Shown here: piece after piece, positions 15,954 through 40,440 of the stretch
Position numbering within the stretch: the stretch's first letter is position 1
Layout: every line of letters begins with the position of its first letter
Source: Spirochaetaceae bacterium
Lineage (GTDB): Bacteria > Spirochaetota > Spirochaetia > B11-G9
Length of the DNA: 42,496 bases
Reading direction: 5' to 3'
NCBI GenBank assembly: GCA_015493635.1
Contig: WGCU01000047.1
Coordinates: forward strand, 1 to 42,496
Position numbers and translations under genes: made by a program
Notes under the pieces: model-generated
Told to the model about the DNA's origin: nothing
The model's database searches: none
What the model saw: only the letters and a program-made list of their open reading frames with translations

Positions 15954-15957
15954 TACA

Positions 15958-22915: not shown

Positions 22916-24472
22916 TTATTCTCCCGGTGCTTTCCACATTGAAGTGGTTATCTCCCGATCGGCAAGATCCAATTGCACCCGGTATGCATCTTTCCATTTC
23001 TCATATAATTCTTTGTAAATATTCTGTTTTGTCGAATCAGGATAATATACGGTATCCTTTTTCACATAATTATTAATCTCTTCTCTGATGTCCTTAATGA
23101 TACCTGCTCCCTGCGCTGCAAATACAGCTGCTCCCAAAGCAGTGGCTTCTTTTACCTCTCTTGTTTCGACAGGGACCTGCAAAACGTCTGAAACGATCTG
23201 ACACCAAAGCGGAGATTTGGAAGCACCGCCTGCAAAGATTATCTTTTCCGGAAAAGAACCGGTAAATTCTGCAATTCTGTCAAGATTAGCACGTGTTACT
23301 ATTGCCGCATTTTCAAGGAGGGATCGAAAGAGTGTGGCTCTATCACACACCTCGGCATCAAGGGAAAGGTTTAAAAAAGAAGGAGCTGCATGCCGCCAGT
23401 GTTTATAATCCATCGCATCAGAGAAAACAGGAATTACGTTATTGGATCCTGCCGGTACCTTAGCAGCCATATCAGAAAGAAGATCATACGGATCGCGGTT
23501 CATTTTCAAAGCTTTTTGCTTAATATCCGGACAAATAGCATCACGGAACCATCGGACAACAAGCCCCGGGAAAAAAACAATAGCCTCCGCCTGCCAGAGC
23601 CGCTGCATTGCGTGAAAATTAATACGGATACGTCCGGTTTTATCCACCTTAGGAGAAGAAAGATTTACTTCCTGCTGCCAGAATGATCCGCCGAAAACCG
23701 CAGCATCTCCCGGATTAACAGCACCAACGCCAACTGCACCGAGCTGGGCATCCCCTCCTCCCATAATGATGGGAATTCCCGCCTTCAAACCTGTCTCTAA
23801 AGAACATTTATCTGAAATTTTTCCTATGATTGAACCGGATTCAAAAACCGGAGCAGAAAGTAATGAAGATTTAATACCACACCTATCTGCAAGATCACGA
23901 TCCCATTTCCGTGTTTCAAGATTAAAAAGGCCAGTTGTTCCTCCATTTGAAGGATCAACAGTAAGAGGAGCCCCAAGACGGTGAGAAAGCCAATCGCTGA
24001 GCATAACCGTGTAGGAAGCTCTGGCATAGATATCTTTCAAATGCTCTTTAAGCCAGAGAAGCCGGGGAATCGCTCCCAGGGCAAAAGTCTGTCCAGAAAC
24101 ATCATATATATCTTTTTCCAATTCAGGATACAAATTTCGCAGTTTTTTAACCTGGGATACAGCCCGTGCATCCACATTTGCACATGCCCACAGCTCACGC
24201 TGTTTTTCATCATATACAGCAATTCCCTCCCGCATGCTTGTCGTTGTTACCGCTGCAAGAGAAAGATCATTTACCTGTGACGATACTTCCTTGATACAAT
24301 CACAGATAAATCCCCAGTTTTTTTCCATATTAAAAGTCATGGAACCTGGGTAATCAGGGTTATGCACATGCGTCCATTCCCGGGCAGCAACTGCACATTG
24401 TTTTCCTGTCTCATCAAAAATAACTGCCCTGCCACTGCCGGTACCCGCATCAAGTGCAAGAAGATGCCGCAT
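22916..24472 (-). CDS. lsrK: autoinducer-2 kinase LsrK
   Basis: 518 residues, FGGY kinase family. It matches remembered E. coli LsrK over its length: DAGTGSGRAVIFDE at the N-terminus, CANVDARA, TVDPSNGGTTGLFNL, GGGDAQLGAVGVG, PVFSDAMDYKHWRHAAPSF, and the terminal SMWKAPGE. That degree of shared motif, including the last residues, sets it apart from xylulokinase or glycerol kinase. It phosphorylates imported AI-2 (DPD) on O5, trapping it and making the inducer of LsrR. It follows lsrB after a 58-base gap holding a strong hairpin, and is followed by the cupin. Confidence 0.92.
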   Translation of the reverse strand: MRHLLALDAGTGSGRAVIFDETGKQCAVAAREWTHVHNPDYPGSMTFNMEKNWGFICDCIKEVSSQVNDLSLAAVTTTSMREGIAVYDEKQRELWACANVDARAVSQVKKLRNLYPELEKDIYDVSGQTFALGAIPRLLWLKEHLKDIYARASYTVMLSDWLSHRLGAPLTVDPSNGGTTGLFNLETRKWDRDLADRCGIKSSLLSAPVFESGSIIGKISDKCSLETGLKAGIPIIMGGGDAQLGAVGVGAVNPGDAAVFGGSFWQQEVNLSSPKVDKTGRIRINFHAMQRLWQAEAIVFFPGLVVRWFRDAICPDIKQKALKMNRDPYDLLSDMAAKVPAGSNNVIPVFSDAMDYKHWRHAAPSFLNLSLDAEVCDRATLFRSLLENAAIVTRANLDRIAEFTGSFPEKIIFAGGASKSPLWCQIVSDVLQVPVETREVKEATALGAAVFAAQGAGIIKDIREEINNYVKKDTVYYPDSTKQNIYKELYEKWKDAYRVQLDLADREITTSMWKAPGE

Positions 24473-24492
24473 AAACGCCTCCAGATAAAACA

Positions 24493-24522
24493 GGCAGGCA
24501 GTCTAAACAAGTACTGCCTGCC
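24493..24522 (-). terminator. hairpin between lsrB and lsrK
   Basis: Perfect ten-base arms (24493-24502 and 24513-24522, GGCAGGCAGT/ACTGCCTGCC). Followed on the minus strand by TGTTTTAT, so it is a weak terminator or a 3'-end stabiliser. It would leave lsrB mRNA more abundant than lsrK, as is usual for binding-protein genes. Confidence 0.6.
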
Positions 24523-24529
24523 ATAAAAA

Positions 24530-25573
24530 TTAGAAATTATAGTTATCTATATTATCTTTTGTAAAAACAGTTCTTTCCGGCAGGAGTACAATCCCATTAT
24601 TATCTGCTTCATAACTGTAACCCTGTACGGAGTTAGGCGATATTTCAACTTTTCCAACTCCGGGAACATCAAGCTTATCACCCTTTTTGAAAACCTTACC
24701 TTTTACAAGTTCATTTGCCATATATATAGCCAGTTTACCCTGAACGACAACATCCCAGAGACCGAAACGGTTTACCGTTCCACTATGAACATACTGTTTC
24801 ATTGAGTTAGGAGTTGAAAATCCGGTTATAATTACTTTACCGCCGATACCAAGATTCTCTGCCGCCTGAGCAGCTGCAGGAAGAGCCGTTGAATCAGGAC
24901 AAATTATAGCATCAAGATCAGGATACGTTTTAAAAATATCAGTTGCTGTCTGCAATGATTTTTGAGGATCCTGGTACCCATACTGAGTAGTAACAATATC
25001 CCAATTTTTGTGTTCTGCTTTAATTTTTGCCTTTGCTACTTCTGCCCACTGATTCTGATCAGTAACTTCAGGACTGGAATAGAAGAAAGCAACTTTTCTT
25101 TTACTATTATCAGTTATCTGATCTGCTACCATTTTTACAAGAAGAGCCCCAAGCTGTTTTGGCGTTCCCTGATCAATATAGTAAGACCGGAATTTAGGGT
25201 TAACATCAGAATCCCAGGTAAGAACTTTTACACCTTTATCAGCTGCACGCTTTAATGCCTGATTCAGTCCATCTGGAGAAAGTGCCGAGATTACTATTGC
25301 ATTGTACCCCTGATTAACAAAATTGTTGATGTATTCAATCTGCCCGCTGACACTTGCTTCACTCGGTCCATCATACTTGACTTGAATACCCAGTTCCTTA
25401 CCCATTGCCATGGCACCTTTGGCTCCTGACTCAAAAAAACCATTTCCGGTAATCTTTGGAATAAAGGCTATCTTTGCCGGTCCTTTTTCTTTGCCTCCCT
25501 GGGCAAAAACACCTGCAACGGCAATCATACTTATTAAAAGTACGATTATCATCGTTCTCATTACTTTGGTCAT
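24530..25573 (-). CDS. lsrB: AI-2 periplasmic binding protein LsrB
   Basis: 347 residues with a signal peptide ending near VFAQGG. It is close to enteric LsrB across the whole length ([69 protein letters not shown]). Of the six AI-2 contacts known for Salmonella LsrB, five are kept at the expected offset: Lys40, Asp121, Asp172, Gln173 and Pro226. The sixth, Ala222 there, is Ser228 here (CPDS). It should therefore bind the R-THMF form of AI-2, with a possible change in affinity. It is the fourth gene of lsrACDBK. Confidence 0.93.
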
Positions 25574-25617
25574 ATGTTCCTCCTAAAAATATTATAAATC
25601 CGCATACGCGAATAAAT

Positions 25618-26610
25618 TTACTCAGTTTGAATTTTGCTATTTCCAGAGTTCATTTTCAATTTTGTAAAAAAGAGTTTTGCCGCAACTGCAACTATCAATA
25701 CAAGTCCGATAACTACCTGGGAAACATTATTGGTAACTCCAAGAGCCATGAGACCCTGCTTCAGGATTCCAAGAAAAATTGCCGCAATAAAGGTACCAAT
25801 AATGGTTCCGCTTCCGCCGAGTATATTGGTCCCTCCCAGAACAACTGCTGTTAAAGCAGGAAGAAGTGCTTCAGAACCTAGATCGGAACGGGCAGAAGTA
25901 AAGTAAGAAGTCAAGAGAATTCCGGCAATTGCAGAACCAAGCCCTGTCAGTGTGTAGGTAAGGACAATCACCAACTTTACTTTGATGCCATTATACAATG
26001 CTGTATTCACATTGACACCGATAAGATAGATAGAGCGGCCAAGCCAATGCCGGTGAAGAATAAACCCGAGAAAAAGCGCAAAGAGTATAATATAGATCAT
26101 GGAAGAAGGGATAAAGCCGATACTTCCATACGCAAAAGAGAGAAACCCTTCCGGAAAATCGCCAATTCCATTATATCCGGATGCTCCAAGACTGCCCGCT
26201 ATACCGGTTGCAATTCCGGAATAGAGAAACATGGTTCCAAGCGTAATAACAAGAGGCTGAATATCTGTATAGGCGACCAGGAAACCATTGAATGTCCCAG
26301 CTGCTATACCGCTCAATAAACCAAGGGAAACAGCTACTTGTATAGGAGCACCCAGAGACCAGGTAGAACCAATAACAATTGATGTCAGTCCCATTATTGA
26401 CGCTATCGAAATATCAATTCCGCCGGTAATAATAACTAAAGTTAACGGCAGAGCTACCAGAGAAATATGAGCAAAGTCTGTTGTTGAATAGAGAATATTT
26501 TTAATATTCAAAAAGGAACTGTTAAAAAAACCAAAAACAAGTATCTCCAGCAGCAACAGCAGAAAAATAATAAACTCCCACCTTTTGAATATTTCACCCT
26601 TTATTTTCAT
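25618..26610 (-). CDS. lsrD: AI-2 ABC transporter permease LsrD
   Basis: 330 residues, the same length as E. coli LsrD, about ten membrane spans. Family signs: GGIDISIASIMGLTS, PLVITLGTMFLYSG, GYNGIGDFPEGFLSFA, and the EAA-like loop SARSDLGSEALLPALTAVVLGG. Pairs with LsrC to form the channel for AI-2. Its start overlaps the lsrC stop by four bases, so the two are coupled. A 44-base gap precedes lsrB. Confidence 0.9.
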   Translation of the reverse strand: MKIKGEIFKRWEFIIFLLLLLEILVFGFFNSSFLNIKNILYSTTDFAHISLVALPLTLVIITGGIDISIASIMGLTSIVIGSTWSLGAPIQVAVSLGLLSGIAAGTFNGFLVAYTDIQPLVITLGTMFLYSGIATGIAGSLGASGYNGIGDFPEGFLSFAYGSIGFIPSSMIYIILFALFLGFILHRHWLGRSIYLIGVNVNTALYNGIKVKLVIVLTYTLTGLGSAIAGILLTSYFTSARSDLGSEALLPALTAVVLGGTNILGGSGTIIGTFIAAIFLGILKQGLMALGVTNNVSQVVIGLVLIVAVAAKLFFTKLKMNSGNSKIQTE

Positions 26611-27617
26611 TGCAGTACTCCTGTCTTCTGCCTATCTCTCTTAACATATTTCAGGCGTTCCTGTTTTTCCCTTTCATTGATGAGCATCCTTACTCTAAAG
26701 TCTAAAAGAACAACTATAATAAGAATTGCTCCTGCTATGGCATCATTCCAGAATGCCGGAACCTTCAGAAATACAAGAACACTGTCAATGGTGGTAAGGA
26801 AAAGTCCTCCAACAAGCGCTGAAAGGGGAATACCAACACCTCCCGACAAACTAACTCCTCCCAAAACACACGCAGCTATTGCCCGCAGTTCTTGTCCGGA
26901 TCCCGTCTGCATGGGAATAAATCCGATTCTTGAAACAAATACTATTCCAGCTAATCCTGCAAATAAACCGGCAAGAGAATATGCAACAAACAAACCTTTT
27001 TTAACCGACACTCCCATAAAAAAAGCGCCTTCTTCATTATCACCAATATAGTAAAATATTCGTGCAGCCCTTACTTTCTTCACCAGTACCGTAAGGAACA
27101 CCGCAAGGGCAATAACAATCCAGGCAAAGACGCTTATACCAAGAAATGTAATCCCCGACATACTTTTAAAACCAATAGGAATTGTATCTATCCAGCTTCC
27201 TCCGGTTATGATATACATTAGTCCCCGTAAAGCGCCCATTGTTCCCAGCGTCATGATAATAGGGGGAACTTCAAGAACAGTAACACCGAAACCGTTAAAC
27301 ATTCCCGCGGCAAGGGCAGCTCCCAATGCGTAGATAATGCTTACAGGATAAGATATTCCAGCGTTCAGGCTCAGCCCTGCCACAACAGCACTTAATCCGG
27401 TTATGGCTCCCAAGGAAACATCTATACCAGAAGTGAGAAGTACAAACATCTCTCCGAGAGCAATAAGAACTAATATCAGGGAATTATCCAAAACCCCATT
27501 GAGCGTATCAACTTTCAAAAAAACAGGGTTGACAATTCCTACAGCAACAACGAGAAGAACAAGAAGACTGAAAACGGCAAATTCACGTTTCTTGTATAAA
27601 TCTTTAAAATTATTCAT
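26607..27617 (-). CDS. lsrC: AI-2 ABC transporter permease LsrC
   Basis: 336 residues, ribose-type permease. Distinguished as LsrC by SRIGFIPMQTGSGQELRAI, IAACVLGGVSLSGG, TIDSVLVFLKVPAFWND and the basic tail KQERLKYVKRDRQ, all close to the E. coli protein. Forms the membrane channel with LsrD and is energised by LsrA. The start overlaps the lsrA stop (ATGA), giving coupled translation of all three transporter subunits. Confidence 0.9.
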   Translation of the reverse strand: MNNFKDLYKKREFAVFSLLVLLVVAVGIVNPVFLKVDTLNGVLDNSLILVLIALGEMFVLLTSGIDVSLGAITGLSAVVAGLSLNAGISYPVSIIYALGAALAAGMFNGFGVTVLEVPPIIMTLGTMGALRGLMYIITGGSWIDTIPIGFKSMSGITFLGISVFAWIVIALAVFLTVLVKKVRAARIFYYIGDNEEGAFFMGVSVKKGLFVAYSLAGLFAGLAGIVFVSRIGFIPMQTGSGQELRAIAACVLGGVSLSGGVGIPLSALVGGLFLTTIDSVLVFLKVPAFWNDAIAGAILIIVVLLDFRVRMLINEREKQERLKYVKRDRQKTGVLQ

Positions 27618-29128
27618 CCGGCAACTCCAAAAGCTCCTGAGGTTACTCTTTCTATCGTTGACTCATCCTTTGAAAGCTCTTCAATAATCTCACCCCTATA
27701 CATAACAAGTATACGGTCACTTAGCCGGATAACCTCTTCCAGATCTGATGAGATAAGCAGAATTCCAACGTCCAAATCTATTAAACTCTTTATAATGTCA
27801 TAAACATCTTCACGGGCTTCCGCATCAACACCGCGGGTAGGTTCATCAAGAATAATTACTTTCGGGTTACAGGCCATGGCTCGTGATATAACAATTTTCT
27901 GCTGGTTTCCTCCGGAAAGTGTTCTTGAAATCTGCTTTGGACCATTCGTTTTTATTCCAAGTTTTTTAATAAAATATTCGCCTAATTGTCGTTCTTTTTT
28001 ATTGCTGATAAACAATTTACCCATCTCGGAAAGGATACTTGATGAGGTTGTATAGAGATTTTGTAAATCCAAAAAAATACCATGCGCTGCTCTATCTTCT
28101 GGGACATAGACAATTCCTTTCTTTCTGCTTCTGCCGGGACTCCTTTGAGAAAAAGATTCATTCCCTATAATCACCTCTCCAGTTACATTCTTATCTATTC
28201 CAACTATCCCTTCTGCCAGTTCTGTCCTCCCCGCCCCCACAACACCGGCAAGTCCTACAATTTCACCAGGCATTACTGAGAAAGAAATCCCATTAAAAGC
28301 TTCTCCCGTAAGATTACGAATTTTTAATAAAGGAGCTAGTCCTTCTGCTATTTTCTTTTGAGAGGTTTCTTCAATTTTTTTAGATATCCTGTCATCAGGA
28401 AGCATTGCATTAATCAGTGTTGTTTCATTAAGTTGGGCAACAGGTTTATCAAGGACAAAATTCCCATCCCTTAAAACACTAACACGGTCAGCGATTTCCA
28501 GAATTTCATTAATTCGATGCGAAATAAAAAAAACACCAATACCCTGATTCTTTAAATTTCTTAGTTGTTTAAATAACGACTCTACTTCACGAAAAGTAAG
28601 CGTTGACGTAGGTTCATCAAGAATAAGTATTTTAACATTCCGCAGGAGTCCCCGGAGAATCTCAAGAAGCTGCTGCCCTGCAATACTCAGGATCCCCGCA
28701 GGTCGGGATAAACTTTCAGAAAACCCTAACTGCTGCCCCATCTTTTTAATTTCTTCGGTTTTGCTTCCTAGTGTGTAGGATGTACCGATAATAATGTTTT
28801 CTTCTATTGATAGATTGGGAAATATCTTCGGCTCCTGAGGGACAAGATAGATCCCGCTTTCATGGGCCTGGGAAGGATTTAAAAAGTTACATTCTTCTCC
28901 GCTGATACGTATAGTTCCCGCATTTTTCCGGTAAATCCCAGAAAGTATTTTCATAAGTGTTGATTTCCCTGAACCATTTCCACCAAGTAAAGCATGAATC
29001 TCACCGCTTTTCAGATCCAGATTAACACCTCGTAAAACAGCAACACCATTGAATGACTTCCAGATACCGTTAAGCTCTACAAGATCTTTTCTCATTTCAG
29101 AATCCGGGATTTTCTCTCCATGAATCAT
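27614..29128 (-). CDS. lsrA: AI-2 ABC transporter ATPase LsrA (double domain)
   Basis: 504 residues with two ABC domains, as for ribose-type importers. First: Walker A GGNGSGKST (49-57), signature LSIAGQQLLEI, Walker B ILILDEPTSTL. Second: degenerate Walker A GVVGAGRTEL, signature LSGGNQQKIVISRA, Walker B VIILDEPTRG. The first LSxxQ motif is the altered one, usual in this family. ATG 29128 follows CGGAGCAG; a second Met 11 codons in is less likely. First gene of the leftward operon, from a consensus promoter divergent to lsrR. Confidence 0.91.
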   Translation of the reverse strand: MIHGEKIPDSEMRKDLVELNGIWKSFNGVAVLRGVNLDLKSGEIHALLGGNGSGKSTLMKILSGIYRKNAGTIRISGEECNFLNPSQAHESGIYLVPQEPKIFPNLSIEENIIIGTSYTLGSKTEEIKKMGQQLGFSESLSRPAGILSIAGQQLLEILRGLLRNVKILILDEPTSTLTFREVESLFKQLRNLKNQGIGVFFISHRINEILEIADRVSVLRDGNFVLDKPVAQLNETTLINAMLPDDRISKKIEETSQKKIAEGLAPLLKIRNLTGEAFNGISFSVMPGEIVGLAGVVGAGRTELAEGIVGIDKNVTGEVIIGNESFSQRSPGRSRKKGIVYVPEDRAAHGIFLDLQNLYTTSSSILSEMGKLFISNKKERQLGEYFIKKLGIKTNGPKQISRTLSGGNQQKIVISRAMACNPKVIILDEPTRGVDAEAREDVYDIIKSLIDLDVGILLISSDLEEVIRLSDRILVMYRGEIIEELSKDESTIERVTSGAFGVAG

Positions 29129-29268: not shown

Positions 29269-30222
29269 ATGACGCAGACCGATATAAAAAACGCTAAAAT
29301 TGCAAAAGCTGCTTTCCTTTATTATACCAAGGGAAAAACACAACAGGAAATTGCTCGTGAGCTGGGGATAACAAGAGTTGCGGTATCCCGCATTCTTACC
29401 GATGCCCGCACACAAGGTATCGTTGAAATAAACGTTCATTACCCCTGGACATCAAAAGAACTAGAGAAGAAACTTATCAAAAATTTCGGTCTTGAAGATG
29501 CCAAGGTCCTCTATACAGCAACCACAGATCCGGATGAAATAATCAGCGAACTGGGTATCGTTGCTGCAAAATATTTTAAAACCATCATAAAGAACAAACA
29601 GATCATAGGTATCTCGTGGGGGAGAGCCTTACGGGAAATGATCAACTCCATAAAGGAACTTTCAAGACCTAAAACAACCATCGTGCAGCTTATAGGTGCT
29701 TCCGGAACTGAATCGGTTCTCACTGACGGCCCGAAACTGGCTCAGCATTTTTCAGAAAAATTAAATTGTTCAGCCAAATACATGCACTCTCCTTTGATAG
29801 TAGAAAATGAAACCATTAAAACGTCTTTAATTCAGGACAGAATGGTAAGCAGCACCATCGAATTGGCATGTAAAGCTGATCTTGCTTTCGTTGGTATTGG
29901 AGCAACGGAAAAAGAGATATACAGCCTTCTAAAAACAGGCTATGTCAGCGAAAATGAATTTAAAACACTAAAAAAAGCTGGAGTGGTAGGAGATATCTGT
30001 GCACAGCATTTCGATATCAACGGCAACGTTCTTGATATTGCTCTCAATAAGCGTACTATCGGCATCAATCTCGAACAACTGTCAAAGATAAAAACCGTTA
30101 TAGGAATTGCTGGTGACCCCCGCAAAAGTAAAGCAATTCTCGGTGCACTTCGAGGCGGATACATTGACGTTCTTATAACTGATTTTCACGTAGCAAAAAA
30201 TGTTTTGAAGATGTGTAAATGA
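29269..30222 (+). CDS. lsrR: SorC/LsrR-family regulator
   Basis: 317 residues, AAGGGGA at 29259-29265. N-terminal helix-turn-helix (KTQQEIARELGITRVAVSRIL, about residues 23-43) and a C-terminal sugar-phosphate sensing domain (VGIGATEKEIYSLLKTGYVS, GVVGDICAQHFD, ILGALRGGYIDVLITD) as in E. coli LsrR. It should repress lsrA-K until phospho-AI-2 binds. The divergent arrangement with lsrACDBK mirrors the enteric locus. Given its place it might also control the transketolase-RLP operon downstream, which has its own promoter. Confidence 0.88.
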   Translation: MTQTDIKNAKIAKAAFLYYTKGKTQQEIARELGITRVAVSRILTDARTQGIVEINVHYPWTSKELEKKLIKNFGLEDAKVLYTATTDPDEIISELGIVAAKYFKTIIKNKQIIGISWGRALREMINSIKELSRPKTTIVQLIGASGTESVLTDGPKLAQHFSEKLNCSAKYMHSPLIVENETIKTSLIQDRMVSSTIELACKADLAFVGIGATEKEIYSLLKTGYVSENEFKTLKKAGVVGDICAQHFDINGNVLDIALNKRTIGINLEQLSKIKTVIGIAGDPRKSKAILGALRGGYIDVLITDFHVAKNVLKMCK

Positions 30223-30342: not shown

Positions 30343-31242
30343 ATGAAAGAAACTTTACATACAGCGGAACAAATCAGAAAAAGGGTTCTTGAACATACCA
30401 TTAAGAACAACGGAGGATACCTGAGCCAGGCTTGTTCCTCGGCAGAAATCCTGGCGACCCTGTACCTTAAAATCATGCATCTCGGCAGGAGTCTTGCACC
30501 CATGATTCCTCCGCCTTTCCCGGGTGTTCCATCTGCATCAAATAAAAACTACTTCCGCGGCGGACTCTATAACGGACCGGCGGCCCCTGAATATGACCGG
30601 TTCTACCTTAGCCCGGCCCATTATGCCCTTGTCTTGTATACAACTCTTATTGAAGTCGGAAGAATGGCGCCGGAAGCACTTGATCAGTTCAACAAAGACG
30701 GCAGTACCGTTGAAATGATAGGAGCGGAACATTCTCCGGGATTTGACATGATGGGCGGCAGTCTTGCACAGACGTTGAGTCAGGCAGGAGGTATCGCCTT
30801 AACCAGAAAAAAAAGGAACGAGCCGGGGAAAGTCTGGGTCTTTATGTCAGACGGAGAGTTTCAGGAGGGACAGACATGGGAAGCTGTACAGACACTCTTC
30901 CATTACAAAATTGATAATCTCGGAGTATTTATCGATATAAACGGACAGCAGTGTGACGGTCAGACCTGTGATGTTATGTGTCTGGATCCTCTGGAAGAGC
31001 GTCTGAAAGCCTTCGGTGCTTATACAGTCGCTGTTAACGCCCACGATCCTGAAGCACTTGCACATGCAGCACAGCACAGCCATCCGGACAAACCGCTCTT
31101 TGTCCTCTGTTACAGCGATCCGTGCAGAGGAATGCCGCTGCTGGAGAAAAGAAAACCGAAGCTGCATTATGTCCGATTTACAAGTGAAGCAGAGCGGGAT
31201 GAATACCGCAAATTCCTCAACAATCAGTTTCAAGGAGTCTGA
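30343..31242 (+). CDS. split transketolase, N-terminal subunit
   Basis: 299 residues, the thiamine-diphosphate/Mg-binding half of a two-gene transketolase. ThDP motif: MSDGEFQEG with Asp170, about 30 residues later Asn200 in VFIDING; the usual GDG is SDG here. EHSPGFDMMGGSLAQTLSQA matches the conserved HTPGxExxTGPLGQGL region in relaxed form. Split transketolases make up many bacterial enzymes, including those that act on apulose 4-phosphate. Here it is in one operon with an RLP, so its substrate is likely a product of the RLP rather than standard pentose phosphates. One base separates it from the next start. Confidence 0.85.
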   Translation: MKETLHTAEQIRKRVLEHTIKNNGGYLSQACSSAEILATLYLKIMHLGRSLAPMIPPPFPGVPSASNKNYFRGGLYNGPAAPEYDRFYLSPAHYALVLYTTLIEVGRMAPEALDQFNKDGSTVEMIGAEHSPGFDMMGGSLAQTLSQAGGIALTRKKRNEPGKVWVFMSDGEFQEGQTWEAVQTLFHYKIDNLGVFIDINGQQCDGQTCDVMCLDPLEERLKAFGAYTVAVNAHDPEALAHAAQHSHPDKPLFVLCYSDPCRGMPLLEKRKPKLHYVRFTSEAERDEYRKFLNNQFQGV

Positions 31243-31243
31243 C

Positions 31244-32251
31244 ATGCAAATACTATCAAAAATTCATAACAGAAATCTCGTTTCCTGGGCTGAGAACAGA
31301 CCTGATGTTGTTGTTCTTTCGGCGGATTTGACCAGTTCTACTGAAATAAACGGCTTTCAAAGTGCTTATCCCGACAGATTTTTCTCAATGGGTGTTGCAG
31401 AGCAGAATATGCTTTCTTTTGCGGCCGGTATGGCAAAAGAAGGGTTTGTCCCCATGGTCCATACCTTTGCTGTTTTTATCTACCGGCAGGCCCTCAATCA
31501 GATAAACAGCTCAATCGCTTATTCCAATCTCCCGGTTAAAATGTTCGGGTTCCTTCCCGGTATTACGACACCGGGCGGGGCAACACACCAGGCAATTGAG
31601 GATGTGGCTGTTATGCGCAGTATCCCCAATATGACTATCTTCGAAACGGGGGATGCGACTGAAATTGAAACAATAATGGATGCTGTTTACGAGACTAATG
31701 GGCCGGTATACATCCGCATGCTGCGGGGCGAAGTTCCGCGGCTGTTTGATAAAGAAGACCCTTTTATCCCGAACAAAGCCCGCATTCTCAGCAAAGGGAC
31801 GGATATCACCCTCATTACATCAGGAATATGCACTGAAGAAGCTATGCGTGCTTCTGCTGTTCTGGGATCCAAAGGGGTTTCTGTGGAACACCTCCACGTA
31901 TCGACCCACAAACCCTTTACCGACCCCCGAATACTCGAAGCTGTATCAAAACCGAAATATGGTGTCATCACTATGGAAAATCATACCATTATCGGAGGAC
32001 TGGGAACGGAAGTAGCGGAGGTTATGGCGGAAAACGGCATTGGAAAAAAACTTAAAAGAATAGGCTTGAATGACACGTACGCCCATGGAGGCAGCCGCCA
32101 CTACCTTATGAGGAAATACGGACTTGATTCCATGGCACTTATTACTGGTATAGAAGAATTCATAGAGACCTCCCTGAATATATCTGAAGAGGATCTTGCA
32201 AATATCCGTATCGAGGCTGTCCACAGCAGTGCAAAGGCAGAAGCACTGTAA
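31244..32251 (+). CDS. split transketolase, C-terminal subunit
   Basis: 335 residues from ATG 31244 (AAGGAG at 31232-31237); a longer in-frame reading upstream lies inside the previous gene and is rejected. Carries the pyrimidine-binding half with the ThDP-activating Glu53 (GVAEQNMLSFAAGMA), the TFAVFIYRQALNQI segment and a C-terminal transketolase domain (ITSGICTEEAMRASAVL, ENHTIIGGLGTEVAE). Needs the 30343 subunit for activity. Its TAA stop overlaps the RLP start (TAATG), so the RLP is made by coupled translation, strong evidence for a shared pathway. Confidence 0.87.
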   Translation: MQILSKIHNRNLVSWAENRPDVVVLSADLTSSTEINGFQSAYPDRFFSMGVAEQNMLSFAAGMAKEGFVPMVHTFAVFIYRQALNQINSSIAYSNLPVKMFGFLPGITTPGGATHQAIEDVAVMRSIPNMTIFETGDATEIETIMDAVYETNGPVYIRMLRGEVPRLFDKEDPFIPNKARILSKGTDITLITSGICTEEAMRASAVLGSKGVSVEHLHVSTHKPFTDPRILEAVSKPKYGVITMENHTIIGGLGTEVAEVMAENGIGKKLKRIGLNDTYAHGGSRHYLMRKYGLDSMALITGIEEFIETSLNISEEDLANIRIEAVHSSAKAEAL

Positions 32252-33402
32252 TGGTACCCGGAGGAAAGGATCTTGTGATAAGCGGTGACAGGTTCTCAGT
32301 ACACTATCAGCTTTCATGTCTTCCGGATAAAGCTGCAGTACTGGCCCGGCATATCTGCTATGAACAGACCGTTGAATTCCCCGAAGACCTTATTCCGGAC
32401 GGTGATATAAAAAAATTCTTAACAGGAAGGATAGAGTCCCTTACAGAAATTGGAGACAATACCTTTCTTGCCGAAATAAGCTACGCCTCAGAAGTAACAG
32501 GGATGGAGTTTCCCCAGTTTCTTAATACCCTTTTTGGTAATATAAGCATTCTTCCGGGCATTCGGATTACCGGCATTGTTCTCCCCGAATCGATGTCCGC
32601 CATAAGTACAGGTCCCCGTTTTGGAAGTGCGGGTATAAAAAAACTTCTGCATGCGGAGGGACGGCCTCTTGTCTGTTCCGCACTTAAACCGCTGGGCCTT
32701 TCGTCCGTAGAATTGGCTGACCAGGCATATCAGTTTGCCGCGGGAGGCCTTGATCTTATCAAGGATGACCACGGCATAACAAATCAGCAGTTCAGTCCCT
32801 TTAAAGAGCGGGTACAACGCTGCTCTGATGCCGTACAGGAAGCTAACCTTAAATACGGAACAAAAACACTCTATCTTCCGAATATCAGCGGACCGGTTGA
32901 AAGAATTTTCGAATGGGCCCGCTTTGCAAAAGATGCCGGAGCGGGAGGGCTGCTTATTGCACCGGGACTGACAGGATGGGATACCATGAAAACAATTTCT
33001 GAAGATGGTTCTCTTTCCCTTCCGGTCATGGCGCATCCAGCGTTCACGGGGACATACGTACAGTCACCGGCTTCGGGTCTTTCCCATGGTGTTCTTTACG
33101 GTCTCCTTATGCGTCTGGCAGGTGCCGACATGACTGTTTTCCCTAACTACGGAGGGCGGTTTTCTTTTTCTAAAGAAGAGTGCAGAGATATTATCTCAGG
33201 ATGTATAAAACCATTATCTCAAACAAAACCGATCCTTCCGGCTCCCGGCGGCGGTATGACAACAGAAAAGCTTAAGGATCTTACAGATTTTTACGGAAAA
33301 AATTTTGTTATGCTCATTGGCGGAGGTCTCCACCGGTACAGTCCAAGTCTTATTAACAACAGCAGGTATTTTATGGATGAGGTAAAAAAAGCGTGCCCTT
33401 AA
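32251..33402 (+). CDS. RuBisCO-like protein (form IV)
   Basis: 383 residues with a RuBisCO large-subunit fold. Kept: Lys146 (ALKPLGLS, equivalent of K175), Lys171 and Asp173 (GLDLIKDDHG, K201 and D203), His262 (AHPAF, H294), and phosphate-binding glycine runs 333-335 and 357-359. Changed: Leu148 for K177, His174 for metal ligand E204, and NYGGRF where loop 6 has GK. It thus cannot be a carboxylase. RLPs enolise or isomerise 5-carbon ketose phosphates: MtnW in Bacillus methionine salvage, and the R. rubrum RLP that turns methylthioribulose 1-phosphate into 1-methylthioxylulose 5-phosphate. With mtnK and mtnA nearby, that kind of isomerisation fits. The OiaX-type RLPs of apiose breakdown are an alternative. 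The 3' end overlaps a terminator of the opposing operon. Confidence 0.88.
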   Translation: MVPGGKDLVISGDRFSVHYQLSCLPDKAAVLARHICYEQTVEFPEDLIPDGDIKKFLTGRIESLTEIGDNTFLAEISYASEVTGMEFPQFLNTLFGNISILPGIRITGIVLPESMSAISTGPRFGSAGIKKLLHAEGRPLVCSALKPLGLSSVELADQAYQFAAGGLDLIKDDHGITNQQFSPFKERVQRCSDAVQEANLKYGTKTLYLPNISGPVERIFEWARFAKDAGAGGLLIAPGLTGWDTMKTISEDGSLSLPVMAHPAFTGTYVQSPASGLSHGVLYGLLMRLAGADMTVFPNYGGRFSFSKEECRDIISGCIKPLSQTKPILPAPGGGMTTEKLKDLTDFYGKNFVMLIGGGLHRYSPSLINNSRYFMDEVKKACP

Positions 33403-33439: not shown

Positions 33440-33652
33440 TTACTCTGGTTTTACAACCACGTATCCTTCTTTTATTAACCAGGAATGGAACTCATGAGTT
33501 GTATGAATACAGGCAGTCCTGCACCGGTAACGGACATCTTCATATTCTTTTGACCCTTCCGCATACGACTCCAGCTCAAGCTGAACCGGACACTTTACCG
33601 CCCTGCAGTATTCACGTTTTTGATAATCAACAAATCCTTTTATGGTACTCAT
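33440..33652 (-). CDS. 70-residue Cys/His protein of unknown function
   Basis: 70 residues, starting in the four-base overlap with the dehydrogenase stop. Four cysteines in two pairs (CRAVKC at 16-21, CRTAC at 44-48) followed by IHTTHEFHSWLIKEG with three His. The pattern could hold zinc or a small iron-sulfur cluster. No signal peptide or membrane span. It is the final gene of the leftward operon, so probably helps the zinc dehydrogenase or another enzyme in the pathway. I do not recognise the family. Confidence 0.7.
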   Translation of the reverse strand: MSTIKGFVDYQKREYCRAVKCPVQLELESYAEGSKEYEDVRYRCRTACIHTTHEFHSWLIKEGYVVVKPE

Positions 33653-34695
33653 AATGCGTTATCCAGTTCTACAATTACTTTGAGAGAATTATTACCCTCA
33701 GAATCATGCCCCGTTGCTGTCATTAAAAAACCTTCCTGTATGTCATCAAGGGGTATTTTGTGAGAAATAATCTTTTCAACAGGTACCCGTCCCGCCCGTA
33801 TCAGTTCCATGGATTCCACCGCATCAACGGGAGCGTTACCGTAGGAGGGCATTAATTTTATTTCATTCCTCCAGAAGTCATTCAGCGGAACAGGAAGATC
33901 CTCTCCTGGATTGGATGTCGCAAAAGCAAGAATCGTTCCTCCCCTTTCTACTGCTTTCAAAGCCTGTTTAAATGCAGGAAGAGCACCGGTACACACAAGA
34001 ACAAGATCGGCCAGTTTCCCTCCGTTCACTTTTCTCAGTATTGAGGGAACATCTTCCCTTGCATCTATCGTAACCTCCGCGCCAAGTTGTTTCGCGGTCT
34101 TAAGCCGTTCCTTATTGACGTCTGTTGCAATAATTCTTCCTGCTCCCAGAGTTTTTGCCAGCATAATATGAAGAAGACCGGAAATACCGCTTCCCATTAC
34201 AAGAACTGACTGCCCGGGGCGTATACCCACCAGCCGCTGAGCCCGGACAACACAGGCAAGAGGCTCAATAAAAACAGCCTTGTCATAGGACATCTCATCC
34301 GGGAGGACAAACACCCCCCTGTCCACATTTATCTCAGGAACCCTGATGTACTCCGAAAATCCTCCGGGAAAAAAGTTTGTTGAATGCAGGGTATCGCAGG
34401 CGGTATGGTACCCGTTTAAACAGTAATCACATGTATTACAGGGGACATGATGGGAAACAAAAACCCGCTGCCCAGTACGGTACTTCGTAACACTGCTTCC
34501 AACTTCTACAATTTTTCCCGCCATTTCATGTCCGAGAACAAGGGGGGCCTTTTTTATCCGGTACCATTCCAGAACATCGGAACCGCATATACCGCAGGCT
34601 GCGGCTTTTACCAGTATTTCATTCGGTCCAATTACCGGTTTCGGCATCTCCTCTACCCGGACATCTTTATTATTATAATACATACCAACACGCAT
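33649..34695 (-). CDS. zinc-dependent medium-chain dehydrogenase (sorbitol/threonine dehydrogenase type)
   Basis: 348 residues with AAGGAG before the ATG. Catalytic zinc ligands: Cys37 (CGICGSD), His56 and Glu57 (GHE), Glu144 (FIEPLACV). Structural zinc: Cys86, Cys89, Cys92, Cys100. NAD-binding GSGISG at 168-173 followed by an Asp in ATDVNKER, favouring NAD over NADP. Family members oxidise polyols and reduce aldehydes. In the DHAP shunt an alcohol dehydrogenase reduces methylthioacetaldehyde or acetaldehyde after the aldolase step, which would suit this gene, but a sugar-alcohol substrate brought in by the operon's ABC transporter is as plausible. Confidence 0.85.
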   Translation of the reverse strand: MRVGMYYNNKDVRVEEMPKPVIGPNEILVKAAACGICGSDVLEWYRIKKAPLVLGHEMAGKIVEVGSSVTKYRTGQRVFVSHHVPCNTCDYCLNGYHTACDTLHSTNFFPGGFSEYIRVPEINVDRGVFVLPDEMSYDKAVFIEPLACVVRAQRLVGIRPGQSVLVMGSGISGLLHIMLAKTLGAGRIIATDVNKERLKTAKQLGAEVTIDAREDVPSILRKVNGGKLADLVLVCTGALPAFKQALKAVERGGTILAFATSNPGEDLPVPLNDFWRNEIKLMPSYGNAPVDAVESMELIRAGRVPVEKIISHKIPLDDIQEGFLMTATGHDSEGNNSLKVIVELDNAL

Positions 34696-35487: not shown

Positions 35488-36474
35488 TTACCGTTTTTTT
35501 GAAAGGCCGAAGGTAAATGCAAGAGCCGCAACAAGAACACTGCCCTTGATAAAATCCTGCCAAAAGTACTGCATACTGAGCATCGTTAAGCCGTTCATGA
35601 GCATTCCGATAAAAATTGCTCCGAGAATTGTACCGAAAGGGTTCGGCTTACGCACGCCAAGAACCGCATATCCTATGAGAGCCGCGGCTATGGCATCCAT
35701 CAGAAGTGTTCCCTGGGAACCGACATCTCCCCTTCCTACCCGGGCTGCAAGAAGAATACCGGCAAGAGAAGCAATGATGCTGGACGATACGTAAGCAATG
35801 ACCTTGTACTTGTTAACATTTACTCCTACAAGACGGGCGGCTTCCGGATTGCCTCCGATAGCATAAAAAATCCTTCCGTATTTTGTTCTTGAAAGAATAA
35901 TGTATACGATAAGGGCAATAACAATCATTATCAATACAGGTATGGGAATAACCTTGAAAACTCTCCCCTGGCCGAGATATTTAAATCCAGGATCAAAGGT
36001 TCCCATGGCTTCTTTACCGTTTCCCAAAATTGCTCCGGTTCCAATTGATAACCCTCCCGAGGGGATAAGCTGCAGTCCCTGAACAAGAAACATCATACCG
36101 AGGGTTGCGAGAAGATCTGGTATTTTAACCTTTACAATAAGAAAACTGATAAACAGACCGATGACCGCGCCTATGAGTAGAACAATAATAATAGCCACAA
36201 CTCCTGAGAGCTGAAGAACGACCATACTGTACGCTGACATCATAACGGTAATTGCCGCAATAGAACCTATGGAAAGATCCATTCCATCTATAATCAGCAC
36301 AAAAGTTTCTCCAAGCGCCATGGTTCCAAAAATACAAACACTCAACAGAATGTTAAACAGGTTCCCAGCCGAATAAAATGCAGGCTGAAGTACAGAAAAG
36401 GCAACAAACAAAACCCCCATTACAATAAGGAATCCCCACTTTATTGAAAAATCCCTTATTTTTACATTAGCCAT
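35488..36474 (-). CDS. ribose-type ABC transporter permease
   Basis: 328 residues, about ten membrane spans, RbsC family: LIIDGMDLSIGSIAAIT, PDLLATLGMMFLVQG, GRIFYAIGGNPEAARLVGV and the coupling loop RVGRGDVGSQGTLLMDAI. It is the sole permease gene of the operon, so the channel should be a homodimer, unlike the LsrC-LsrD heterodimer. Located between the ATPase and the DeoR gene, with GGAGAAAATA before the ATG. Likely carries a pentose-like compound such as methylthioribose or 5-deoxyribose, judged only by the kinase and isomerase beside it. Confidence 0.87.
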   Translation of the reverse strand: MANVKIRDFSIKWGFLIVMGVLFVAFSVLQPAFYSAGNLFNILLSVCIFGTMALGETFVLIIDGMDLSIGSIAAITVMMSAYSMVVLQLSGVVAIIIVLLIGAVIGLFISFLIVKVKIPDLLATLGMMFLVQGLQLIPSGGLSIGTGAILGNGKEAMGTFDPGFKYLGQGRVFKVIPIPVLIMIVIALIVYIILSRTKYGRIFYAIGGNPEAARLVGVNVNKYKVIAYVSSSIIASLAGILLAARVGRGDVGSQGTLLMDAIAAALIGYAVLGVRKPNPFGTILGAIFIGMLMNGLTMLSMQYFWQDFIKGSVLVAALAFTFGLSKKR

Positions 36475-36484
36475 TATTTTCTCC

Positions 36485-38008
36485 TCAATTTAAAATTTCT
36501 TCCGGCACCTGAGCAGTCCAGTGCACCAGTGTGTCTTTTTCGATTTCTCCGGCCTGCTGCTCACCGGCAATCATGCCGGAATTAAACACAACAACCCTGT
36601 CTGCAACATCCACAACCTCATCAATATCCGTAGCAATGAGAATTGCGGAACTTTTACCTATATGAGCACGGAGATATTTACTTATTTCACTCCGGGATTT
36701 TACATCAACTCCCTGAAAGGGCTCATCAAGAATAACAAGTTTAGGTTCCGTCATAAGCCATCGTGCAACGACAACTTTCTGCTGGTTTCCACCGGACAAA
36801 CTGTCTATCGCCGCTTCCTCGCTTTCGCATTTAATGGTCATGGAGTCAATCATCCTCCGGGCTTCCTTTCTCTCCTTTCCGACGTTCAACAAAGAAAGAC
36901 TGTTTGAAAAAGAATCAAGAAAGGGTGCCACTATATTCTGGCGGATATTGAACTGCGGGAAAACTGCATTGTTGTTCCGGTCCTCAGGAACCATAAAAAT
37001 ACCATGATTAATAGCATCTTTAATATCCACCGGATCATACAGTTTCCCATGAAGAAACATTTCTCCGCTGACCGGTTTATTTATTCCAAAGATAACCTGG
37101 GCAAGTTCCGATTTTCCCGCTCCGATCAGCCCTGTAATACCAAGGACTTCTCCTTCATAAACCTTCAAATTAAGAGGACGGTCCCCTTCCTGTACAACAA
37201 TTCCTTTCAATTCAAGTTTGACAACTTCTTTATTTGCATGGACATCCTCTTTTCTTACCGGTTCATGATCTATATCCCCAACCATGGCGTGAACAATATG
37301 CTGTGCACTAAAAGGAGATTCAAGGACACCGGACTTTTTACCGTCCCGTAAAACCCCGACCCTGTCAGCAAGCCTGGTAATCTCATGGAGCCGGTGCGAC
37401 ACGTAAACAATGGAAACACCCCTGTCCCTCAATTTTTTAAGGGTTACAAAAAGCCTCTCAGCTTCTTTTTCCGAAATGGAGGATGTCGGTTCATCAAGAA
37501 TGAGAAGTTTAGGATCAGAAGCAAGAGCCCTTGCTATACTTATCATCTGCCTGTCGCTCTGGGAGATGGTAAAAACCGGCGCATCCAGATCAAGATAATC
37601 CAGATCCATCATCGACGCAATTTCCCGTGCACGTTTTCTGATACCCTTATAATCATAAAAAATCGGTTGATCCGGAGAAAGCATCTCCTCCAGAGCAAGA
37701 TTTTCCGCTACCGTCATACTTTGAATGACACCCTGATTTATTATCTGATGCACTGTCTGGATTCCCGCATCATAGGCGTCCTTGGGGCAGGTAATGAGAG
37801 CTTCTTTTCCATCTATAAGTATCCGGCCCTCATAACCGCTGTGATAACCGCAGATAATCTTTATAAGGGTTGACTTCCCTGCACCGTTGGCACCCACAAG
37901 AGCCATAATCTCACCAGGAAAAAAATCAAAACTCACATCATCCAGCGCTCTCGTAGCATCAAAAGACATACCGATATTCTTTACTTGTACAATAGGTTTA
38001 GTATCCAC
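36485..38008 (-). CDS. sugar ABC transporter ATPase (double domain)
   Basis: 507 residues, RbsA/MglA family. First domain: Walker A GANGAGKST (39-47), signature ISQSDRQMISIARAL, Walker B LLILDEPTSSI. Second domain: degenerate P-loop GLIGAGKSEL, signature LSGGNQQKVVVARWL, Walker B LVILDEPFQGVD. GGGAGG lies before the ATG. Paired with the single permease downstream and the binding protein at 40463-41527. It is a separate set from LsrA-LsrD, so the window holds two complete importers of the same class. Confidence 0.88.
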   Translation of the reverse strand: MDTKPIVQVKNIGMSFDATRALDDVSFDFFPGEIMALVGANGAGKSTLIKIICGYHSGYEGRILIDGKEALITCPKDAYDAGIQTVHQIINQGVIQSMTVAENLALEEMLSPDQPIFYDYKGIRKRAREIASMMDLDYLDLDAPVFTISQSDRQMISIARALASDPKLLILDEPTSSISEKEAERLFVTLKKLRDRGVSIVYVSHRLHEITRLADRVGVLRDGKKSGVLESPFSAQHIVHAMVGDIDHEPVRKEDVHANKEVVKLELKGIVVQEGDRPLNLKVYEGEVLGITGLIGAGKSELAQVIFGINKPVSGEMFLHGKLYDPVDIKDAINHGIFMVPEDRNNNAVFPQFNIRQNIVAPFLDSFSNSLSLLNVGKERKEARRMIDSMTIKCESEEAAIDSLSGGNQQKVVVARWLMTEPKLVILDEPFQGVDVKSRSEISKYLRAHIGKSSAILIATDIDEVVDVADRVVVFNSGMIAGEQQAGEIEKDTLVHWTAQVPEEILN

Positions 38009-38026: not shown

Positions 38027-39310
38027 TTATAAAGGAGAAACCTCTTGAGCAATGGTAATCATTTCCTGGACGGATTTCATTGTTTCTGCCTGGAGAATAA
38101 GTTTTTTTCCTATTGCCAGGGCCATTTTATCCGCTTCCGCCCGGCTGTCCGGATCATCAATAGACGCAATATCAGAAACTTTTGCCAAACCAAGGGTTCT
38201 GCGGATCATTACTGTTCCAGCAAATCCTGCTGTATCATGAAAAATCCGGCTTATTTCTGTCCTGCGGAGTTCCGTAAAAGCATCATCACCGCCGGGGAAA
38301 TCCCACATTGGATCCGGATTTTTTTTCTGATGTTCCTGCCACAGCTTATCATACTTTTCTGCAAAACCTTCCCATATTTCTTTTACAGCACTCAGTACCC
38401 ACCTCCGATAGTCAGCAGGATCATTACCAAGCTTTTTCTGCCAGTACATTTGTCCAATGTACGCAAGGAGCATGTTCCCCAGCAGTAAACCGATATCAAA
38501 CCCTGCAGGACCATAGAAAGCAAACTCGGGATCAATAACATAACTCTCATCCTGATTCGCCATTATACTTCCCGTATGAAGATCCCCATGGAGAAGTACT
38601 TCAGCATTATTCATGAATTTATACCGAAGGAGGGCTACTTTCTGTTTCAGCTCACCATCTTCCTGAATACTCTTTTTATCAGCCTCAGATATCCCGGGAG
38701 GATAGGAATTCGTTTCACTAGGATAGAAAGGATATGAAAAGATAAAATTCTCCGTAAGGTTACAGAGGTCTTCATTTATGAACTGCTTCACCATCTCCTT
38801 CTTCGCTGCTGTATCATGATCAGGCCATTTCTCTGTTTTTCCAGCCATACCCCAATCTGAAGTAAAAAATACCATCCTTGCAAGGAAGGTGGACACATGA
38901 TCCGGCATTTTCGGGAATCTGATACCCTTGTTCATTTCTCCCCTGACAATGGTATGTTTATTCAAATTCTGCATAATAACGAGTGACATCTCACTGTCTG
39001 CATGATACACCTCAGGTACAAGCCCCGGACATATCTCATACTCTTTCTTAAGAGCGGCGACTTCAAAGTTCATCCGCTCTATATCCAGGGGCCACGATTC
39101 ACCGACAACGCGGAGGAAAGGTACTGCCTGCTTCAGAACTACCGTTTCTTCGGGATCTTTATTATTCGAGATAATATACACGTAATTAAGATTTCCATCC
39201 CCTACTTCCTTGACATTCAGGTCATCAAAAGATGAAAAAATCTTTTTCATGGAGTCCAGACTTTTAAGATAGTCGACAACAATCTCTTCAGTAAGCTGTT
39301 TATATGCCAT
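38027..39310 (-). CDS. mtnK: 5-methylthioribose kinase
   Basis: 427 residues, choline-kinase-like fold, length as in Bacillus MtnK (about 400). Glycine-rich loop EVGDGNLNYVY (35-45), ATP Lys60, catalytic HGDLHTGSI (241-249), metal-binding DPEFAFYGP (260-268). HGDLHTGSI is characteristic of MtnK. It phosphorylates methylthioribose on C1 at the expense of ATP; related enzymes also take 5-deoxyribose. Kinase plus importer in one operon points to uptake of free methylthioribose-type sugar, complementing MtnP, which makes the same phosphate inside the cell. Four bases after mtnA. Confidence 0.92.
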   Translation of the reverse strand: MAYKQLTEEIVVDYLKSLDSMKKIFSSFDDLNVKEVGDGNLNYVYIISNNKDPEETVVLKQAVPFLRVVGESWPLDIERMNFEVAALKKEYEICPGLVPEVYHADSEMSLVIMQNLNKHTIVRGEMNKGIRFPKMPDHVSTFLARMVFFTSDWGMAGKTEKWPDHDTAAKKEMVKQFINEDLCNLTENFIFSYPFYPSETNSYPPGISEADKKSIQEDGELKQKVALLRYKFMNNAEVLLHGDLHTGSIMANQDESYVIDPEFAFYGPAGFDIGLLLGNMLLAYIGQMYWQKKLGNDPADYRRWVLSAVKEIWEGFAEKYDKLWQEHQKKNPDPMWDFPGGDDAFTELRRTEISRIFHDTAGFAGTVMIRRTLGLAKVSDIASIDDPDSRAEADKMALAIGKKLILQAETMKSVQEMITIAQEVSPL

Positions 39311-39314: not shown

Positions 39315-40382
39315 TTACTCTCCGAATACCTTTTTCAAATTCTCTTTGAAGGGAGGATATATAATACCCTTTTCCGTTATAAACCCTGCAATCAGTTCAT
39401 GGGGAGTTACATCGAAAGCCGGATTCCGTACCTTTATACCTTCAGGACCGGTTCTCCGTGCTCCGAAGAAGGTTACCTCTTCAGGATCCCTTTCTTCAAT
39501 AACAATATCATCACCCGATTCGGTTTCAAAATCGATGGTGGATGAAGGACACGCAATGTAAAGGGGCAGATTGAAATGCTGTGCCAGAATGGCAACCCCC
39601 ATCGTCCCTATCTTGTTCGCCGTATCTCCGTTGGCAGCAACCCGGTCACACCCGACAATGGCAAGATCAATCAGTTTCTTTGACATGATAAAGGCAGCCA
39701 TATTATCGGTAATAAGAGTAACATCAATCCCTGACTGCTGCAGCTCCCAGCTGGTAAGCCGTGCGCCCTGCAAGAGAGGCCGCGTTTCATCCGCATACAC
39801 ACGGAACCGGACTCCGTCTTCATGAGCAAGATACATTGGTGCTGTTGCTGTTCCCAGTTCTGAAGTAGCAAGGGAACCTGCGTTGCAGTGCGTCAGGACT
39901 CCCATTCCATCTTTAATAAGAACCTTACCGTTAAGACCGATGTTTCTGCATATTGCCCTGTCCTCATCATGTATAGTGACCGCCTCTTTTTCCAGAGCCG
40001 CATACATCTCGGCAGCGGTACTTTCTTTCATATTTTCAGCAACAGAAACCATTCGTTTAAGGGCCCAGCTTAAATTGACAGCTGTCGGCCGTGATGTATC
40101 AAGATACTCGGCACTTTTTCTGAGCTCCCTTAAAAAGGCTTCCCGGGAAAGATCTGTTTTGTCTTTAACACCGTAGAGGAGCCCGTATGCTCCCGCTATT
40201 CCAATTGCCGGTGCCCCCCGGACTTTTAACTTTTTTATAGAATCCCAGACCTGTTCAATACTTTTCTGTTCTTCAAACTTCACTTCCACAGGAAGCAGCG
40301 TCTGATCGATCAGTGTTAAAACACCATCTTTCCATGAAAGAGTTTGGGCCAATGATGAATAGTCCGCTTTTTTTTCTGACAT
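39315..40382 (-). CDS. mtnA: methylthioribose-1-phosphate isomerase
   Basis: 355 residues from ATG 40380-40382, chosen because AGAGGAG lies just upstream; a longer reading to 40433 has no such site. Signatures: RGAPAIG (55-61), catalytic Cys166 in THCNAGSLATSELGTA, ADETRPLLQGARLT, and Asp246 in GCDRVAANGDTANKIGT. It opens the methylthioribose 1-phosphate ring and isomerises it to methylthioribulose 1-phosphate; homologues do the same for 5-deoxyribose 1-phosphate. Not eIF2B: length and Cys/Asp pair are those of the isomerase. Upstream, a hairpin separates it from the binding-protein gene. Confidence 0.93.
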   Translation of the reverse strand: MSEKKADYSSLAQTLSWKDGVLTLIDQTLLPVEVKFEEQKSIEQVWDSIKKLKVRGAPAIGIAGAYGLLYGVKDKTDLSREAFLRELRKSAEYLDTSRPTAVNLSWALKRMVSVAENMKESTAAEMYAALEKEAVTIHDEDRAICRNIGLNGKVLIKDGMGVLTHCNAGSLATSELGTATAPMYLAHEDGVRFRVYADETRPLLQGARLTSWELQQSGIDVTLITDNMAAFIMSKKLIDLAIVGCDRVAANGDTANKIGTMGVAILAQHFNLPLYIACPSSTIDFETESGDDIVIEERDPEEVTFFGARRTGPEGIKVRNPAFDVTPHELIAGFITEKGIIYPPFKENLKKVFGE

Positions 40383-40413
40383 ATGCACTCCTCTAAACCG
40401 TACGTGTTGTATT

Positions 40414-40440
40414 AAAAGGGGTGCATCACACACCCCTTTT
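40414..40440 (-). terminator. hairpin between binding-protein gene and mtnA
   Basis: Ten-base arms AAAAGGGGTG/CACCCCTTTT (40414-40423, 40431-40440), loop of seven; on the minus strand the stem ends in TTTT. Partial terminator that should leave more binding-protein message than downstream enzyme message. Confidence 0.65.

Follow-up and report, generated by a model that had tools for sequence, protein, structure and literature searches.

A conserved unit of a split transketolase-like enzyme and a RuBisCO-like protein, with a predicted role in methylthioadenosine salvage

In a 42,496-nucleotide stretch of DNA from a Spirochaetaceae bacterium (contig WGCU01000047.1; hereafter, the window), a split transketolase (TK)-like enzyme, encoded by two genes that we call TK-N and TK-C, is followed directly by a RuBisCO-like protein (RLP). 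We found that these three genes are a conserved unit. That the unit belongs to the salvage of 5-substituted riboses, i.e., methylthioadenosine (MTA) and methylthioribose (MTR), is strongly supported by its linkage to mtnK and mtnA across phyla and by an RLP type with proven activity as a 1,3-isomerase of 5-methylthioribulose 1-phosphate (MTRu-1P). In the overall best explanation, to which the sequences incline us at somewhat better than even chances, the RLP would produce 1-methylthioxylulose 5-phosphate (MTXu-5P), and the TK pair would then cleave it to glyceraldehyde 3-phosphate (GAP) and a two-carbon adduct of thiamine diphosphate (ThDP). The three genes are:

30343-31242, forward strand: TK-N, N-terminal (ThDP/Mg-binding) half of the split transketolase-like enzyme (Pfam Transketolase_N, 2.7e-17)
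31244-32251, forward strand: TK-C, pyrimidine-binding and C-terminal half (Pfam Transket_pyr, 8.8e-33; Transketolase_C, 1.3e-19)
32251-33402, forward strand: RLP, predicted 5-methylthioribulose-1-phosphate 1,3-isomerase of the DeepYkr type (RuBisCO_large, 4e-27; 3qfw; RLP tree; PMC5893883)

The TK-N stop (TGA, 31240-31242) and the TK-C start (ATG at 31244) are 1 nt apart, and the ATG of the RLP (32251-32253) shares one base (32251) with the TK-C stop (TAA, 32249-32251; TAATG). A first-pass annotation of the window had pointed out this overlap, and the open reading frames were found accordingly. An alternative in-frame RLP start is the GTG at 32275, whose ribosome site, GGAGGAAAGG at 32260-32269, is better placed. 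Since 25 of the 56 homologous junctions show the same 1-nt overlap, usually as the sole candidate start, the coupling of TK-C and RLP goes beyond chance. Some Spirochaetia carry a natural fusion of TK-N and TK-C, a single protein of 644 aa (L069, 8052-9983). Another apparent fusion, a long gene upstream of TK-C at L091, turned out to be DNA polymerase III, an ordinary neighbor.

RLP relatives were drawn from the 393 genomes of the window's phylum and from GTDB genomes, the latter being the 80 best matches, and the sample leans to close relatives. One of the resulting 97 RLP loci (L numbers) is an outgroup that belongs to the same genome as the window (L012), and one genome occurs twice (L073/L119). 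TK-N and/or TK-C was adjacent and on the same strand at 74 of the 97 loci. Among the phylum genomes, TK-C and RLP occurred together in 12, RLP alone in 2 (in both, the RLP lies at a contig end), and TK-C alone in 1 (p = 5e-20). TK-linked RLPs were found in Spirochaetota, Bacillota, Chloroflexota, Planctomycetota, Nitrospirota, Pseudomonadota, Myxococcota, Acidobacteriota, Elusimicrobiota, and one Lokiarchaeota bin. The first-pass annotation had placed the TK and the RLP in one pathway and proposed a comparison of the neighborhoods of RLPs beside TK pairs; the linkage at 74 loci and the 12 phylum genomes with both bear this out.

The best PDB match of the RLP was 3qfw (1.2e-71), which we take to be RLP1 of R. 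palustris, and in the RLP tree (a quick tree with SH-aLRT support only) 3qfw groups with a cupin-linked RLP. In R. rubrum and R. palustris, RLPs of the DeepYkr type convert MTRu-1P to MTXu-5P, and the next enzyme of this MTA-isoprenoid shunt is a cupin, MTXu-5P methylsulfurylase (PMC5893883). By analogy, the RLP of the window would turn MTRu-1P into MTXu-5P. The earlier assumption that known RLP salvage routes yield a 1-substituted xylulose 5-phosphate agrees with these DeepYkr enzymes. Two other assignments were rejected, namely the enolase MtnW (164 bits against a TIGR03332 cut-off of 514, and no acireductone dioxygenase [ARD]) and OiaX of the apiose pathway (74 against 700 bits). The genome also has a second, distant RLP (L012, contig C51, 8975-10294). 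Its operon, in which some names were assigned by eye, further encodes RpiB, a class II aldolase, a SorC regulator, a UPF0261/Tm-1-like protein, and an ABC sugar importer, and is a separate, uncharacterized sugar pathway.

A cupin homologue was present beside the RLP at 5 of the 97 loci, and at none of them together with a TK; the ThDP enzyme is thus the commoner partner of DeepYkr-type RLPs in the sampled loci. Genome-wide, the cupin was absent from the window's genome and from 26 of 27 TK-type genomes, the remaining one of which had one weak match. In the tree, cupin-linked RLPs were scattered and nested among TK-linked ones, from which we conclude that the RLP has swapped partners, with at least two changes forced by well-supported branches and four by parsimony. 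On the simplest reading, cupin and TK pair take the same RLP product, and the TK pair would stand in for the methylsulfurylase. An enzyme in the same genomic slot as the cupin could also make the cupin's own product, 1-deoxyxylulose 5-phosphate (DXP), or otherwise handle the RLP product without C2-C3 cleavage, and TK-C does resemble DXS about as well as TK (171 bits in the DXS profile, family cut-off 466). We consider this very unlikely, however, as reductive removal of the SCH3 group needs an electron donor, which a ThDP enzyme does not supply, and as the genome has its own DXS (669 bits).

The pathway context was similar across phyla. MtnA was encoded within about 10 kb at 13 of the 97 RLP loci and MtnK at 10, both counts being minima because many loci end at contig ends. 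The order ABC importer-mtnK-mtnA-TKN-TKC-RLP was seen on annotated plasmids of Shinella, Mariluticola, Rhizobium rosettiformans, Pararhizobium, and NT-25, and Ponticoccus has a nucleoside phosphorylase (PNP), an amidohydrolase, mtnA, an S/N-oxide reductase, TKN, TKC, and RLP, in this order. MtnA was present in 28 of 30 RLP genomes; within the phylum, it was found in 13 of 14 genomes with an RLP compared to 200 of the 379 others (p = 0.002). ARD was absent from 26 of the 28 RLP genomes searched, that of the window among them, i.e., canonical oxygen-dependent methionine salvage is mostly missing in RLP genomes. Sulfur-related genes were also found nearby, including MetX with Cys/Met pyridoxal phosphate (PLP) enzymes (L100), Cys/Met enzymes (L030, L099, and L112), and a BisC-type S-oxide reductase adjoining the TK pair (L144 and L146). 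The reductase is found beside a unit of the MtnA type and beside one that lacks an RLP, which is an indication of a methylthio substrate, and together with MetX and the Cys/Met enzymes it favors thioethers over 5-deoxy sugars. Of the two salvage substrates named by the first-pass annotation, methylthioribose is favored over deoxyribose by the S-oxide reductase and the methionine-synthesis genes.

TK-N and TK-C were folded as separate models. The TK-N model (predicted local distance difference test [pLDDT] score 90.7) was nearest to the split transketolase structure 6yak, and the TK-C model (pLDDT 88.7) to 6yaj, followed by human TK and DXS. The family has the motifs GGYLSQACS and EMIGAEHSPG in TK-N and GFLPGITTPGGATHQ in TK-C. 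We then aligned the family with human TK, the split TK of Carboxydothermus hydrogenoformans, and two enzymes of the window's genome, its TK and its DXS (human TK numbering; the H258 column was excluded, as the human sequence tail is approximate there). The ThDP/Mg motif (GDG...N), the catalytic Glu E366, and R474 are kept. In a normal TK, H37, H110, H416, D424, and R318 serve as contacts to the phosphate, to the C1-OH and the scissile C3-OH, and to the C2-OH of the acceptor. In the family studied here, H37Y and H110I were found in 50/50 sequences, the H110 column being the least secure since it lies in a loop where the comparators align one residue off; H416L and D424G were found in 62/62, and R318 is replaced, mostly by Ser, Thr, or Ala. 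Loss of the C1-OH ligand fits a substrate with SCH3 at C1. With an active site so altered, plain binding of a phosphate of the xylulose 5-phosphate (X5P) type cannot be assumed.

These replacements bear on two other roles for the pair. An ordinary pentose-phosphate TK that merely lies next to the RLP would have the observed fold and ThDP motifs, but it is hardly credible and was rejected, as the substrate residues are invariantly lost, the linkage is conserved, and the genome has a separate, normal 656-aa TK. Transfer to another aldose is normal TK chemistry, and the TK of S. elongatus makes 7-deoxysedoheptulose from 5-deoxyribose (PMC8102628); the pair could thus be a true transferase that moves a methylthio- or deoxy-C2 unit from the RLP product to form a new ketose. 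This is unlikely in our view, given that the acceptor-side residues D424, H416, and R318 are lost and that no gene that could serve a heptulose product recurs downstream.

For the preferred route, RLP product followed by C2-C3 cleavage, the following steps are proposed. MTA or imported methylthioribose would be converted to MTR-1-phosphate via MTA phosphorylase (MTAP) or MtnK, MtnA would yield MTRu-1P, and the RLP would isomerize this to 1-methylthio-D-xylulose 5-phosphate. In a TK-N/TK-C heterotetramer, ThDP would add at C2 and the C2-C3 bond would be cut, releasing GAP and leaving a two-carbon enamine, CH3S-CH2-C(OH)=ThDP, which carries the SCH3 group. Phosphoketolase, a single long chain of another family, cleaves X5P with ThDP and loses a C1 leaving group; it is the model for the first of two possible fates, in which methanethiol would be expelled as phosphoketolase expels water, giving acetyl-ThDP and an acetyl unit. 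Alternatively, protonation would give methylthioacetaldehyde. We regard MTXu-5P as a probable substrate of the TK pair and hold back from a firmer statement because its distal end leaves the loss of D424 and H416 unexplained. If MTXu-5P is the substrate, C2-C3 cleavage is likely. A full methylthio-phosphoketolase reaction, MTXu-5P to GAP, methanethiol, and acetyl-phosphate or acetate, is put forward tentatively, as a possibility we rather doubt.

Several observations weigh against this route. D424, H416, and R318, ligands of the distal sugar and phosphate, are gone, although the distal end of MTXu-5P is that of X5P, and DXS keeps Asp at the D424 position. Both remodeled loops are the lowest-confidence parts of the structure models. 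Thirteen RLP loci with flanks have neither TK nor cupin, and the LsrF-type aldolase of the window (see below) may give MTRu-1P another sink. Furthermore, TK pairs with the same motifs occur without an adjacent RLP at L131, L139, and L146, and so the TK is not tied to the RLP. L139 and L146 have an FGGY (xylulokinase-like) kinase, a Zn-dehydrogenase, a class II aldolase/ribulose-5-phosphate 4-epimerase-like protein, and a molybdopterin oxidoreductase (at L146, the BisC-type S/N-oxide reductase); L131 has a 4-epimerase-like protein and a Zn-dehydrogenase, and neither RLP nor MtnA was found in its whole genome at the thresholds used. It is plausible that these neighbors are another upstream module able to deliver a 1-substituted D-xylulose 5-phosphate, and catabolism of another 1-substituted pentulose is possible at the three loci. 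Separately, DeepYkr-type RLPs lie beside DhaK/DhaL dihydroxyacetone-kinase-like genes at L051, L115, and L053; L051 and L115 additionally have an FGGY kinase and an ABC importer, and neither TK nor cupin.

The tightest competing explanation is that the TK pair acts in parallel to the RLP, directly on MTRu-1P or 5-deoxyribulose 1-phosphate, both with the phosphate at C1. A substrate with its phosphate at C1 and none on its tail would match the loss of the ligands for the C1-OH and the distal phosphate, and a transketolase-like cleavage of 5-deoxyribulose 1-phosphate is suggested for M. jannaschii, according to a citation in PMC8102628. Its weakness is the variants without mtnA: the RLP-less TK loci lack this gene, all have a 4-epimerase-like protein, and two have a xylulokinase-like kinase. 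Retention of R474 and the exchange with the cupin, a user of MTXu-5P, also argue against direct action, which we judge improbable.

The other features of the window that bear on the unit are:

29269-30222, forward strand: SorC-family sugar-phosphate-responsive regulator (LsrR/DeoR-like), upstream of TK-N (PF04198, 1.4e-72; NF053881 248 bits and LsrR 180 bits, both under cut-off)
33649-34695, reverse strand: Zn-dependent dehydrogenase of the mtn operon, perhaps for aldehyde reduction (in L048 and L108, homologues that are 53% identical adjoin the triad)
35488-38008, reverse strand: permease and ATPase of an ABC sugar importer, encoded in the mtn operon
38027-39310, reverse strand: MtnK, 5-methylthioribose kinase (TIGR01767, 489 bits, cut-off 275)
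39315-40433, reverse strand: MtnA, 5-methylthioribose-1-phosphate isomerase (TIGR00512, 440.6 bits, cut-off 279)
40463-41551, reverse strand: substrate-binding protein of the mtn-operon importer
41578-42465, reverse strand: LsrF-type class I aldolase, first gene of the mtn operon (PRK08227, 393 bits, cut-off 297)
3791-4969, forward strand: PLP-dependent Cys/Met enzyme (best match methionine gamma-lyase, under cut-off)
4969-5739, forward strand: MTAP-like protein, predicted to feed MTR-1-phosphate (TIGR01694, 261 bits, below the cut-off of 275)

The mtn operon, which comprises the LsrF-type aldolase, the substrate-binding protein, MtnA, MtnK, the ABC ATPase and permease, a DeoR regulator, and the Zn-dehydrogenase, is convergent with the RLP. 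Homologues of its importer travel with the triad in L040, L042, L043, and L045 and on rhizobial plasmids. The LsrF-type aldolase is probably a parallel aldol route; a class II aldolase lies outside the operon at 11923-12579. LsrF-type aldolase/thiolase proteins recur with MtnA in L063, L083, and L108, loci without lsrK or lsrB, and the proteins labeled LsrF at these loci may therefore be class I aldolases for MTRu-1P. Such a protein occurs together with a Zn-dehydrogenase in L048 and L108.

Divergent from the SorC regulator is an autoinducer 2 (AI-2) importer and kinase operon (22916-29128; lsrA, C, D, B, and K, with LsrB and LsrK above NCBIfam cut-offs), which is unexpected for a genome with spirochaete relatives and contains neither lsrG nor lsrF. 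With such an incomplete operon and an lsrR-like gene next to it, the TK-RLP unit could be thought to replace LsrG/LsrF and degrade phospho-AI-2, a 2,3-diketone phosphate chemically near the MtnW substrate. We rejected this role as extremely unlikely: LsrK or LsrB homologues (>38% identity) were beside none of the 97 other RLP loci, and MtnA and MtnK accompany 13 and 10 loci, respectively. At 12874-20366, inspection of the translations by eye points to a membrane complex like hydrogenase-4/formate hydrogenlyase, with Nuo/Hyf-type subunits.

Among known systems, the MTA-isoprenoid shunt of R. rubrum and R. palustris (PMC5893883) shares MtnA, the RLP type, the lack of an oxygen step, and the proposed MTXu-5P intermediate; here, a ThDP enzyme replaces the cupin, and the predicted exit is GAP and a C2 unit instead of DXP. 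The C. hydrogenoformans split transketolase (6YAJ/6YAK), the nearest structure for both halves, is likewise encoded by two genes and has the same fold and ThDP/Mg motif, but its canonical substrate residues are intact, and those of the present family are invariantly replaced. DXS carries out the C2-C3 chemistry that is predicted for the TK pair, on a 1-deoxy-xylulose 5-phosphate skeleton, and TK-C matches DXS profiles; unlike the TK pair, DXS retains a His where human TK has H37 and an Asp where it has D424, and the DXS of this genome is separate. The dihydroxyacetone phosphate (DHAP) shunt for 5-deoxyribose disposal (MtnK-MtnA-class II aldolase; PMC6079011, PMC10986504) has MtnK, MtnA, and the goal of triose phosphate plus C2 in common with the unit, but it uses aldol cleavage of the 1-phosphate to DHAP and neither RLP nor ThDP enzyme. 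The 6-deoxy-6-sulfofructose transketolase and the apulose-4-phosphate transketolase are sugar-specialized TKs of catabolic operons that have likewise taken on an unusual sugar phosphate, but their sugars and their neighbors are different, and no such genes lie beside the TK-N/TK-C/RLP unit.

We found no description of the RLP-transketolase unit in the open-access literature, consistent with the first-pass annotation, which knew of no pathway of this form; an earlier mention elsewhere is possible. Our results suggest that the unit is a variant of RLP-dependent MTA salvage with an undescribed ThDP enzyme family. Of the relatives of RuBisCO that do not fix CO2, RLPs are the closest, and whichever enzyme follows them decides the fate of carbon and sulfur from S-adenosylmethionine by-products. 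Carriers suited for testing can be cultured, e.g., rhizobia, Heliobacterium, and Alkalispirochaeta. If the proposed reading is true, the unit would provide anaerobic MTA salvage that yields methanethiol or a C2 unit, and a textbook enzyme fold would gain a new substrate class. Should the methylthio-phosphoketolase reaction hold as well, bacteria and at least one archaeal bin would have a way to bring MTA into central metabolism, and its sulfur into reusable form, that is redox-neutral and needs no oxygen.

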